From Akkermansiaceae bacterium (GTDB taxonomy: Bacteria; Verrucomicrobiota; Verrucomicrobiia; Verrucomicrobiales; Akkermansiaceae), in assembly GCA_022510805.1 (NCBI GenBank), contig JAFLSS010000004.1, positions 1 through 64,000 on the forward strand: DNA of 64,000 nucleotides, written 5' to 3'. The first letter of the stretch is position 1. Each line of letters begins with the position of its first letter. Positions 60,496 through 64,000 of the stretch are shown here, one piece after another. Below the pieces are notes generated by a model. The model was not told the origin of the DNA. It ran no database searches and saw only the letters and a program-made list of their open reading frames with translations. Position numbers and translations under genes: made by a program.

Positions 60496-61578
60496 TTACT
60501 CATCGCCAAAGGAGATGCCGATCTCCTTGGCGGCTTCGATGAGCTGGCTCTTTTTGTCGACGAGGTGCAGCTGGCGCACGGCTTCTTCGATGGGCATGCT
60601 CACCATTTCATTGCGCAGCAGAGCCACGGTGTCGCCGAATTTGTTTTCTTCGATGAGGTCGATGGCCTTGGCGCCGCAGCGCACGCCCAGCACGCGGTCG
60701 AACGCGATGGGGGAGCCGCCGCGCTGCACGTGGCCGAGCACGCAGTAGCGGGTTTCAATGCCGGTGATGGTCTCGAGCTTGGTGGAGAGGAAGGAGGCGA
60801 TGCCGCCCAGGCGCACCTCACCCACGGTTTCTTCATCCAGCGTGAGCAGCTTGCCGCCGATTCGGGCGCCCTCACTGACCACGACGATGATTTCTCGCTG
60901 GCCCAGGGCTTTGAGGAGCTCGACCTTGCGGACAATTTCTTCCAGTTTGAACTCGATTTCCGGCAGGAGGATCACATCTGCACCGCCGGCGATGCCGCCA
61001 TAGAGGGCGATCCACCCTGCGTGGCGCCCCATCACCTCCACGACCATCATGCGCTGGTGGGAGTAGGCGGTGGTGCGCAGGCGGTCCAGGTTGGCGCTGA
61101 CGATGGAGACGGCGGTCCAGAAGCCGAAGGTGTAGTCCGTGGAGCCCAGGTCGTTGTCGATGGTTTTGGGCACGCCGACGATGGGCAGGCCGATGTGGCG
61201 CAGCTCCAGCCCGATGGTCTGCGAGCCGTCACCGCCCACGACAATGAGGGCGGAGAGGCCGAGGCGCTCTACAGTTTCCTTGCTGCGGCGCAGCACGTCA
61301 TCTGCAATTTGGAGCTTGCCGCCCACGCCGCTTTTCACGGTGAAGTTACCCTTGTTGACAGTGCCGAGGATGGTGCCGCCCAGGGAGCGGATGTTGTGGC
61401 AGTTGGCCGGGGTGAGGATGCGCCAGCGTTCGTTCTCCGGGGTGGAGAGGAGACCCTCAAAGCCATCAAAAAAGCCGTATACAGTCCAGCCGCGGGCAGA
61501 GGCAGCCCCCACGGCGCCCTCGATGACTGCATTGAGGCCGGGGCAGTCGCCGCCGGCGTTGAGTATGCCTATGTTCAT
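60496..61578 (-). CDS. pfkA: 6-phosphofructokinase (canonical active-site motifs)
   Basis: MNIGILNAGGDCPGLNAVI, VVGGDGSQTIG, PKTIDND, EVMGRHAGWIA, LGHVQRGGSP. Confidence 0.95.
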   Translation of the reverse strand: MNIGILNAGGDCPGLNAVIEGAVGAASARGWTVYGFFDGFEGLLSTPENERWRILTPANCHNIRSLGGTILGTVNKGNFTVKSGVGGKLQIADDVLRRSKETVERLGLSALIVVGGDGSQTIGLELRHIGLPIVGVPKTIDNDLGSTDYTFGFWTAVSIVSANLDRLRTTAYSHQRMMVVEVMGRHAGWIALYGGIAGGADVILLPEIEFKLEEIVRKVELLKALGQREIIVVVSEGARIGGKLLTLDEETVGEVRLGGIASFLSTKLETITGIETRYCVLGHVQRGGSPIAFDRVLGVRCGAKAIDLIEENKFGDTVALLRNEMVSMPIEEAVRQLHLVDKKSQLIEAAKEIGISFGDE

Positions 61579-61591
61579 GGGGAAGGGGAGG

Positions 61592-62575
61592 TTATCTCGG
61601 GAGGGTGATGAATTTGTTCGGGTTGGAGTAGTCGTCAGACTCCAGCCATTCTTCCCAGGCTTTCCAGCTGTCGCGCAGCAGGAGGTTGGCGATCTTGTAG
61701 CGGCTCTCAGAGGAGTGGGCGCCGAGCACGACGATGAGAAGGCGCTGCGGGTAGGTTTCCAGCTTGCCGGTGCGCGGGTTGCGCAGCTTGACGGATTGGC
61801 GCGTGGCAGAGAGGATGAGGCAGGCGCCGGCGGTGGTGGAGCGAGCGGCGCGCACACCCTCTACGCCCGGGGTGCTGAGCATGTTGTTGGAGTTGATGAT
61901 GGTGACCGTGCGCGTGCCGTTGACGGAGGCCACGTAGCTGCGCAGGGAGCAGATGCTGCGGAAGCTGGGCTTGAGCATGGCGTACATGCCGAGTTTGGCG
62001 ATGTCGTGCGTGTCGGACTGGGTGATGATGGCGCCGCTGGAGCCCTTGAACCACGTGGAGCGCATGCCGATGGTGCGCGCCATCTGATTCATCTGATTCA
62101 CGAAGGCGGTCTCAGGGTCAGAGGGGTCGATGGTGGAGCCGCAGGCGTATGCCAGGGTGGCGGCGCAGGCGCTGTCATCCCACATGATGGCGGAGTGCAG
62201 CGCATCGCGCAGGGAGATGCGATCTCCCGGGCGCAGGTGCAGCAGGTTGGTCTGCGGCCAGCGGCAGGCGGAGGCGGGCACCACGAGGATGCGCCCGGTG
62301 TCGATGTGGCGCGCGTTGATCCAGTCGATCACCACGAGGGCAGTCGCCACGTTGGTGAGCATGCCGATGGGGCGCAGCTCATTGGGGTTGCCGGTGTAGA
62401 GCACGCGGCCGGAGTAGGCCTCAAGCGCCAGGTAGCTCGGGGTGCGCTGCGTGGGCGGCGCGACTCGTTCTACACCGGTGCAGGCTACCATGCTCACGAG
62501 GGAAAGGAGGCTGAGCCCGGCCAGGCGGGCGGCGCGGCGGATATTGCGGATTTGGGTCAGGATGCTGTGTGTCAT
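61592..62575 (-). CDS. D-alanyl-D-alanine carboxypeptidase (S11) homologue, lipoprotein, predicted catalytically inactive
   Basis: Collinear with PBP5-type S11 domains, but SxxK->MLTN, SGN->WDD, KTG->RAA; lipobox SMVAC. Confidence 0.85.
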   Translation of the reverse strand: MTHSILTQIRNIRRAARLAGLSLLSLVSMVACTGVERVAPPTQRTPSYLALEAYSGRVLYTGNPNELRPIGMLTNVATALVVIDWINARHIDTGRILVVPASACRWPQTNLLHLRPGDRISLRDALHSAIMWDDSACAATLAYACGSTIDPSDPETAFVNQMNQMARTIGMRSTWFKGSSGAIITQSDTHDIAKLGMYAMLKPSFRSICSLRSYVASVNGTRTVTIINSNNMLSTPGVEGVRAARSTTAGACLILSATRQSVKLRNPRTGKLETYPQRLLIVVLGAHSSESRYKIANLLLRDSWKAWEEWLESDDYSNPNKFITLPR

Positions 62576-63720
62576 GCGGATGTTTCGTCAGTAGAAGTGG
62601 ATGAGGTGTGGTCAACGCTGGAGATGCTGCCGGGGGCGCGGTCACCGAAGATGATGCCTAGGTCACGCGCGGTGCGCACGAGCTGGCTGTCAGCGTGGAT
62701 GATGCGCGGCGCGGCGATGGCTTCTTTGATGGGGACGCTGCCGACATTGAGCCCTTGCAGCACGACTGAGCGGCCAAATTGGTTTTGCTCGATGAGTTTG
62801 ACGGCTTCGACTCCGAAGCGCAGGCCGAGGATGCGGTCAAATGCGCAGGGGCTGCCGCCGCGCTGGGTGTGGCCGAGTACGCAGTAGCGCGACTCGATGC
62901 CCACGCGCTCTTCGAGTTCGTGGCAGAGGCGGTTGCCGATGCCGCCCAGGCGCTCGTTGCCGTTGTCTTTGTTGCGCACGGTGATGAGCTGGCCGTTGAG
63001 GCGGGCGCCCTCGGCCACCACGACGATGATCTCCCGCTGGCCGGCTTGTTTGCGGGCTTTGATGCACTCGACTACGTGGTCGAGCTCAAAGGGGATTTCC
63101 GGGATGAGCACCACATCTGCCGCGGAGGAGATGCCGCTGTGCAGGGCGATCCAGCCGGAGAGGTCACCCATGACCTCAATGACCATGATGCGCTGGTGCG
63201 CATTGGCCGTGGTGCGGATGCGGTCTATGGATTCTGTGACCACGGACACAGCGCTCTGGAAGCCGAAGGTGTAGTCCGAGGCGGGGCAGAGGTCGTTGTT
63301 GATGGTCTTGGGGATGGAGATGACGGGCAGGCCTTCCTCGGAGAGGAGGCTGGCGGTGCGGGCGGAGCCGTTGCCGCCGATGACGGCGAGCGCTTGCAGG
63401 CCGAGGGCGGTGATGGTTTTTTTGGCTTTGGCCATGGTGGTGGGCTCCACTTGGGCGCGGCCGAGTTTGTTCACCCGCACGGCGAAATTGCCGGTGCTGG
63501 TGGTGCCGAGGATGGTGCCGCCATGGGCGCGTATCTTGTGGGTGCCCTGGGGGGTGAGCAGCTCGTAGCGCCGGCCGCTCTCGATGGGCAGCAGTCCTTC
63601 AAAGCCATCGTGGAAGCCGATGACGCGCCAGCCGCGCTTGTATGCCGCGGAGACAAAGCCTTCGATAACTGCATTGATGCCGGGGCAGTCGCCGCCGGAG
63701 TTGAGGATGCCGATAATCAT
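62572..63720 (-). CDS. 6-phosphofructokinase paralogue with degenerate active site
   Basis: MIIGILNSGGDCPGINAVIEG and LGHTQRGGSP kept; GGNGS, PKTINND and EVMGD replace GGDGS, PKTIDND and EVMGR. Confidence 0.92.
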   Translation of the reverse strand: MIIGILNSGGDCPGINAVIEGFVSAAYKRGWRVIGFHDGFEGLLPIESGRRYELLTPQGTHKIRAHGGTILGTTSTGNFAVRVNKLGRAQVEPTTMAKAKKTITALGLQALAVIGGNGSARTASLLSEEGLPVISIPKTINNDLCPASDYTFGFQSAVSVVTESIDRIRTTANAHQRIMVIEVMGDLSGWIALHSGISSAADVVLIPEIPFELDHVVECIKARKQAGQREIIVVVAEGARLNGQLITVRNKDNGNERLGGIGNRLCHELEERVGIESRYCVLGHTQRGGSPCAFDRILGLRFGVEAVKLIEQNQFGRSVVLQGLNVGSVPIKEAIAAPRIIHADSQLVRTARDLGIIFGDRAPGSISSVDHTSSTSTDETSA

Positions 63721-63742: not shown

Positions 63743-64000
63743 TTAGTGGGCGGGGGTGGGGGCCGGGATGGCGCCGAAGCAGTGCGCGCAGTTCCAGAGG
63801 GCGCGCGGGTGGTGGAAGAATGATTTCCAGATGGAGCCTTTCAGGCCATTGGCCGGCGAGCCGTCGCGCTCACAGTAGCCATACCACTCACCATGCCGGT
63901 GGTCTTGCAGGTGGGTGAATGACCAGTCGTGAATGCGCTGGTGCCACTCGGCGTATTTTTCATTGCCGGTCATGGTGTAGGCCAGCGCGGTGCCGATGAG
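63743..64000 (-). CDS. AGE/N-acylglucosamine 2-epimerase family protein, C-terminal part (truncated by window edge)
   Basis: WYGYCERDGSPANGLKGSIWKSFFHHPRALWNCAHCF; frame open to the window edge. Confidence 0.8.
   Translation of the reverse strand, partial: LIGTALAYTMTGNEKYAEWHQRIHDWSFTHLQDHRHGEWYGYCERDGSPANGLKGSIWKSFFHHPRALWNCAHCFGAIPAPTPAH

Follow-up and report, generated by a model that had tools for sequence, protein, structure and literature searches.

PSE, a phosphofructokinase (PFK) gene of an Akkermansiaceae bacterium, encodes a protein in which selection has held the sugar site and not the reaction site. This follows from a frozen fructose 6-phosphate (F6P) pocket and a diverged donor/catalytic pocket in its orthologues. 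The reading favoured here, with a probability of roughly 0.5, is that PSE is a dead PFK-A paralogue that binds F6P and acts as a regulatory subunit in mixed oligomers with CAN, the active-type PFK encoded nearby. Judged from sequence comparison, PSE is probably a sugar-sensing regulator instead of an enzyme.

Gene arrangement and host genome

The features of the locus are listed in Table 1. Positions are those of the window, i.e. the whole 64,000-nt stretch of DNA that was analysed. The sequence-only reading of this DNA placed the paralogue two genes downstream of PSE, and this is correct; a single S11-family gene lies between them, and its ATG overlaps the PSE stop codon (ATGA). The remainder of the AGE gene and a nanA-like lyase gene are on the same contig, beyond the window.

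The host genome (2.2 Mb, 96.75% complete) shows two Pfam PFK matches, PSE and CAN, both inside the window, and no PPi-type PFK gene was found in this genome. PSE and CAN may be its only PFK-A genes. The two proteins display 53% identity.

Table 1. Genes of the locus and variant codons of PSE.
Feature	Position	Strand	Description
Putative pseudo-phosphofructokinase (PSE)	62572–63720	(-)	382 aa, ATG start, PFK-A fold, N103/N127/D171
Active-type phosphofructokinase (CAN)	60496–61578	(-)	360 aa, GGDGSQTI / PKTIDND / MGR
S11 (D-Ala-D-Ala carboxypeptidase family) protein	61592–62575	(-)	327 aa, SxxK/SxN/KTG motifs all lost
AGE (N-acylglucosamine 2-epimerase) family gene, 3′ end only	63743–64000	(-)	22 bases upstream of PSE
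AAC = Asn, PSE residue 117 = E. coli 103 (GGNGS)	63370–63372	(-)	codon read on DNA
AAC = Asn, PSE residue 141 = E. coli 127, catalytic base (PKTINND)	63298–63300	(-)	codon read
GAC = Asp, PSE residue 186 = E. coli 171 (MGD)	63163–63165	(-)	codon read on DNA

Variant residues and family membership of PSE

Residues are numbered by alignment to E. coli PfkA (NC_000913 b3916). It had been claimed from the letters alone that D103, D127 and R171 are replaced by N, N and D in PSE. The codons and the E. coli alignment confirm this, and CAN has GAC, GAC and CGC, i.e. D/D/R, at the same positions. The LGHTQRGGSP motif ascribed to PSE is also present.

PSE is a member of the PFK-A superfamily. It matches the Pfam PFK profile (PF00365) over profile positions 2–277 of 277 with 318.4 bits (cut-off 30.9), and its AlphaFold2 model displays a standard PFK fold (pLDDT 87.7, pTM 0.85), with 3pfk and 1pfk as best PDB matches (target-normalised TM-score 0.92–0.93). 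The C-terminal tail, at about positions 363–382, is charged and clade-specific; it is predicted to be disordered and is of low confidence in the model. A profile search gave no DNA-binding or other additional domain in PSE. TIGR02483 is the best-scoring NCBIfam for both proteins (361 bits for PSE and 363 bits for CAN, cut-off 430.55). NCBIfam cut-offs proved useless as an activity test: PSE and CAN both fall below that of TIGR02483 and both pass PRK03202.

Conservation in Akkermansia

All 76 Akkermansia genomes were searched, and the PFK regions were then taken for comparison. PSE orthologues number 58 and belong to a single Akkermansia clade from the guts of herbivores and birds; these data are metagenome-assembled genomes (MAGs) sampled from one genus. 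The closest named relatives of PSE are in uncultured Akkermansia MAGs from the gut of rabbit, goat, sheep, cattle, water buffalo, deer, horse and chicken. Relatives of the A. muciniphila and A. glycaniphila type are without a PSE gene.

Position 127 is Asn in 58/58 orthologues. Position 171 is Asp in 55 and Asn in three, and Arg is thus lost in every one, while position 103, a Mg/donor position, shows N (32), S (16), G (5) or D (5). The 103/127/171 combinations are N/N/D (32 orthologues), S/N/D (16), G/N/D (5), D/N/N (3) and D/N/D (2). With positions 127 and 171 fixed in their changes and position 103 variable, PSE is defined by D127N and the loss of R171, and D103 is subject to drift. The orthologue alignment that had been proposed as a check therefore bears out the changes at 127 and 171 and shows D103 to be variable. 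The equal weight given earlier to D103N finds no support, since the PPi-type PFK of Akkermansia carries N103 too, as does an Omnitrophota PFK that is canonical in other respects. D103N was dropped as a sign of inactivity because N103 occurs in otherwise intact PFKs, and the case for a pseudoenzyme rests on D127N.

The fixation of D127N in all orthologues places the variant residues of PSE beyond chance. A sequencing or assembly error is ruled out, as MAGs assembled independently in several studies, and from several hosts, share these substitutions. Strain-specific decay with intact D/D/R orthologues, which the sequence-only reading had named as a case that would speak against a pseudoenzyme, is excluded by the 58 orthologues. 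The PSE frames (~340–400 aa) are open and without stops in 58 species-level genomes. The median Nei-Gojobori dN/dS is 0.124 for PSE and 0.091 for CAN (dS is close to saturation in the 221 genome pairs). PSE is under purifying selection.

The PSE signature is in no other sampled Verrucomicrobiota PFK. A degenerate DNA pattern for PKTINND is absent in the other sampled genera of the order (387 genomes), where the one match (G357) lies in an unrelated frame, and it gave no match outside Akkermansia in 241 genomes of the phylum.

Sugar pocket and donor pocket

The residue lists for the two pockets are those of the E. coli enzyme and agree with the reviews. At the ten F6P-contact positions, the 58 PSE orthologues show one conservative exception in 580 cells (mean entropy 0.01 bits), and the consensus equals that of CAN at 10/10. 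T125, R162, M169, E222, R243, H249 and R252 are each found in 58/58. The twelve donor/Mg/catalytic positions of PSE have a mean entropy of 0.45 bits and a consensus equal to CAN at 5/12, as against 0.02 bits in CAN itself. The whole-protein means are 0.41 bits (PSE) and 0.28 bits (CAN). Donor-pocket positions 72, 103, 107 and 172 vary freely in PSE, and the loop after positions 127–129 has a one-residue insertion in 58/58 (NNDLCxxSD in PSE vs. DNDLxxTD).

In E. coli PFK, R243 reaches into the F6P site of the neighbouring subunit. R162 likewise extends to the F6P of the neighbouring subunit (PMC12203962). Both arginines are kept in every PSE orthologue.

Operon context

The order nanA-like lyase / AGE epimerase / PSE / S11-like / CAN is found in 15/15 widely mapped PSE loci (the nanA-like and AGE families are assigned by profile alone, with scores below the equivalog cut-offs). 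The PSE-to-CAN spacing is 959–1096 bases in 55 genomes. A lyase and an epimerase of the nanA and AGE families lead from sialic acid to GlcNAc, whose breakdown gives F6P.

The order is nanA-AGE-S11-PFK in A. glycaniphila and in two further genomes that lack PSE. PSE is accordingly placed exactly between AGE and S11 of a pre-existing operon. The order S11-PFK is found in an A. muciniphila-type genome (G001) and in members of other genera.

The S11-family protein of the window has GMLTN in place of SxxK, WDD in place of SxN and RAA in place of KTG. Its homologues in most other Akkermansiaceae keep motifs of the SLTK/SDN/KTG type. The A. muciniphila clade shows SxxQ (or SxxH), and the PSE clade shows GMLxN together with WDD. 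None of the Akkermansia examined keeps the catalytic Lys, and in 55/57 PSE-clade genomes the catalytic Ser is lost as well. The S11 protein is thus an apparent second conserved pseudoenzyme of the same operon. Its N-terminus resembles a lipoprotein signal, which makes direct contact with a cytoplasmic PFK unlikely.

The active copy and the origin of the pair

The donor motif of CAN, GGDGSQTI, matches GGDGSxxI, with I at position 108 in 55/55. GGDGSxxI is the motif of ADP-dependent PFK-A (PMC11609450), and on the presence of this motif CAN is predicted to use ADP as donor. The A. muciniphila-clade orthologues of CAN have Thr at position 108. Most of the E. coli effector-site residues are not kept in CAN.

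An ATP-type PfkA (PATIDND) and PSE are never found in the same genome: among the 76 Akkermansia, PfkA is present in 17, PSE in 58, and neither in one incomplete genome. This exclusion represents one clade split, not repeated events. In a PMSF tree PSE, CAN and the A. muciniphila/A. glycaniphila PFKs form separate groups, all nested within Akkermansia, and the duplication is therefore Akkermansia-specific. PSE branches first, before the split between CAN and the A. muciniphila PFKs, with weak support (88/76), and the AU test does not reject the alternative of a PSE+CAN clade (p 0.15). Dating of the duplication from the tree was dropped on account of these two values. The A. muciniphila lineage may have lost PSE or may have lacked it from the start.

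Proposed function of PSE

D127 serves as the general base in PFK and is conserved across the family (PMC12203962; PMC11609450), with no known exception among active PFK-A (PMC11609450). The changes fixed at 127 and 171, together with purifying selection, support the view of PSE as a pseudoenzyme, and PSE very probably lacks meaningful PFK activity. It is also probable, with somewhat less confidence, that PSE binds F6P or an analogue. In the C-half of eukaryotic PFK, catalysis and the donor site were lost and the sugar pocket became the effector site for fructose 2,6-bisphosphate (PMC12203962). Loss of D127 together with a frozen sugar pocket has this same pattern, and for that reason PSE is taken as a putative non-catalytic, F6P-binding subunit. 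Assembly with CAN, raised as a possibility in the sequence-only reading, has about even odds; it would be the most economical reading of the conserved linkage and of the inter-subunit arginines that are kept. The regulatory or sugar-phosphate-sensing role suggested in the sequence-only reading finds indirect support in the frozen F6P pocket, in the diverged donor pocket and in the operon shared with CAN and sialic-acid/amino-sugar genes.

In the proposed mechanism PSE would have lost phosphoryl transfer, with the general base at 127 and the Arg at 171 gone and the donor/Mg pocket drifted, and would still bind F6P or a close analogue. PSE and CAN, made from the same operon, would form mixed oligomers in which the dead F6P site of PSE is an effector site. 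F6P from sialic-acid/amino-sugar breakdown would then set the activity of the CAN subunit via PSE. With D changed to N at the base, PSE may retain some activity, and the operon may bring its genes together for expression alone.

A dead PSE could also bind F6P or a related sugar phosphate and work alone as a homo-oligomer, e.g. as a sensor for a regulator or for an enzyme of the operon, and not as a subunit of CAN. A frozen F6P pocket is expected equally in that case, and a homo-oligomer that keeps both subunit-crossing arginines could bind F6P. The clade-specific charged tail could be a partner-binding element, and the degree of identity between PSE and CAN leaves room for separate assemblies. 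However, the linkage with an active PFK is invariant and PSE carries no DNA-binding or other added domain, and a sensor of this kind appears rather unlikely.

That PSE is still an enzyme, i.e. a slow PFK, or a kinase or phosphatase that relies on another base, donor or sugar phosphate, is less likely again. The fold is intact, the gene is under selection and substitution of D103 is tolerated in other PFKs; moreover, migrated catalytic residues are described for some proteins classed as pseudoenzymes (PMC10211241). Against this, D127 is without known exception in active PFK-A (PMC11609450), and D171, the only acidic residue newly gained close to the site, is not a required replacement base, since 3/58 orthologues have N there. 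The freely variable donor-pocket positions also argue against a reaction at this site.

A decaying duplicate without function, to which the lost catalytic residues and a dN/dS slightly above that of the active copy might point, is refuted by the orthologue set, with open frames in 58 species-level genomes, a dN/dS of ~0.12 and an invariant F6P pocket.

The reading of PSE as a regulatory subunit of CAN can be extended to a two-gene PFK, in which a dead F6P-sensing subunit controls a possibly ADP-dependent active one. This would be an independent, unfused counterpart of the eukaryotic regulatory half, placed in a sialic-acid operon, and would take the place of the ATP-type PfkA, an allosteric enzyme, found in the sister clade. 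The extended form is offered tentatively.

Relation to known phosphofructokinases

The presence of two PFK genes in one bacterium is known from Borrelia and other genomes, and the parallel drawn with PSE and CAN is one of gene number. No report of a bacterial pseudo-PFK was found in the open-access literature.

The C-terminal half of eukaryotic PFK-1 is, like PSE, a duplicated PFK unit in which the donor/catalytic pocket was lost and the sugar pocket kept. Rabbit muscle PFK displays parallel losses in the alignment: the TIDND motif reads TVSNN, and MGR is replaced by MGG. In eukaryotic PFK-1, however, a single fused chain carries the regulatory and the catalytic half, whereas PSE is a separate gene, paired with CAN by the operon. 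The two are of independent origin, since PSE is nested inside the Akkermansia PFKs.

The yeast PFK alpha/beta hetero-oligomers are an example of assembled paralogous subunits (PMC12203962), an arrangement that PSE and CAN may share. Each yeast subunit has an N-terminal catalytic half, and in this PSE differs. PSE shares its fold, length, K124, G104 and F6P site with the “group 3” mixed 40-kDa PFK-A (TIGR02483; cyanobacterial ADP-PFK-A, PMC11609450). It is unlike that group in having N127, D/N171, the donor motif GG[NSGD]GSA.T and the one-residue loop insertion.

Eukaryotic PFK regulation arose when one duplicated half gave up catalysis and its sugar site became a switch. If the favoured reading is true, the same trade would have been made in a bacterium as two independently expressible proteins, with close relatives lacking PSE for comparison. 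This would bear on how the entry of sialic-acid-derived carbon into glycolysis is controlled in a mucus-associated gut genus. It is also a warning that, where a genome is annotated with two PFKs, this locus may supply just a single functional enzyme.

Other PFK variants

A third PFK type in Akkermansia, the PPi type, is ~420 aa long and shows NGGNDS / PKTIDND / MGR (L090 in G060, L091 in G048). The Omnitrophota PFK with N103 (L207) has 47% identity to E. coli PfkA, and its remaining catalytic residues are intact. In the family Akkermansiaceae, one PFK (L245 in G083) has GGEGS, with E at position 103, and intact PKTIDND and MGR. A PFK from KSB1 (L206) has PKTIDKD, with K at position 128.
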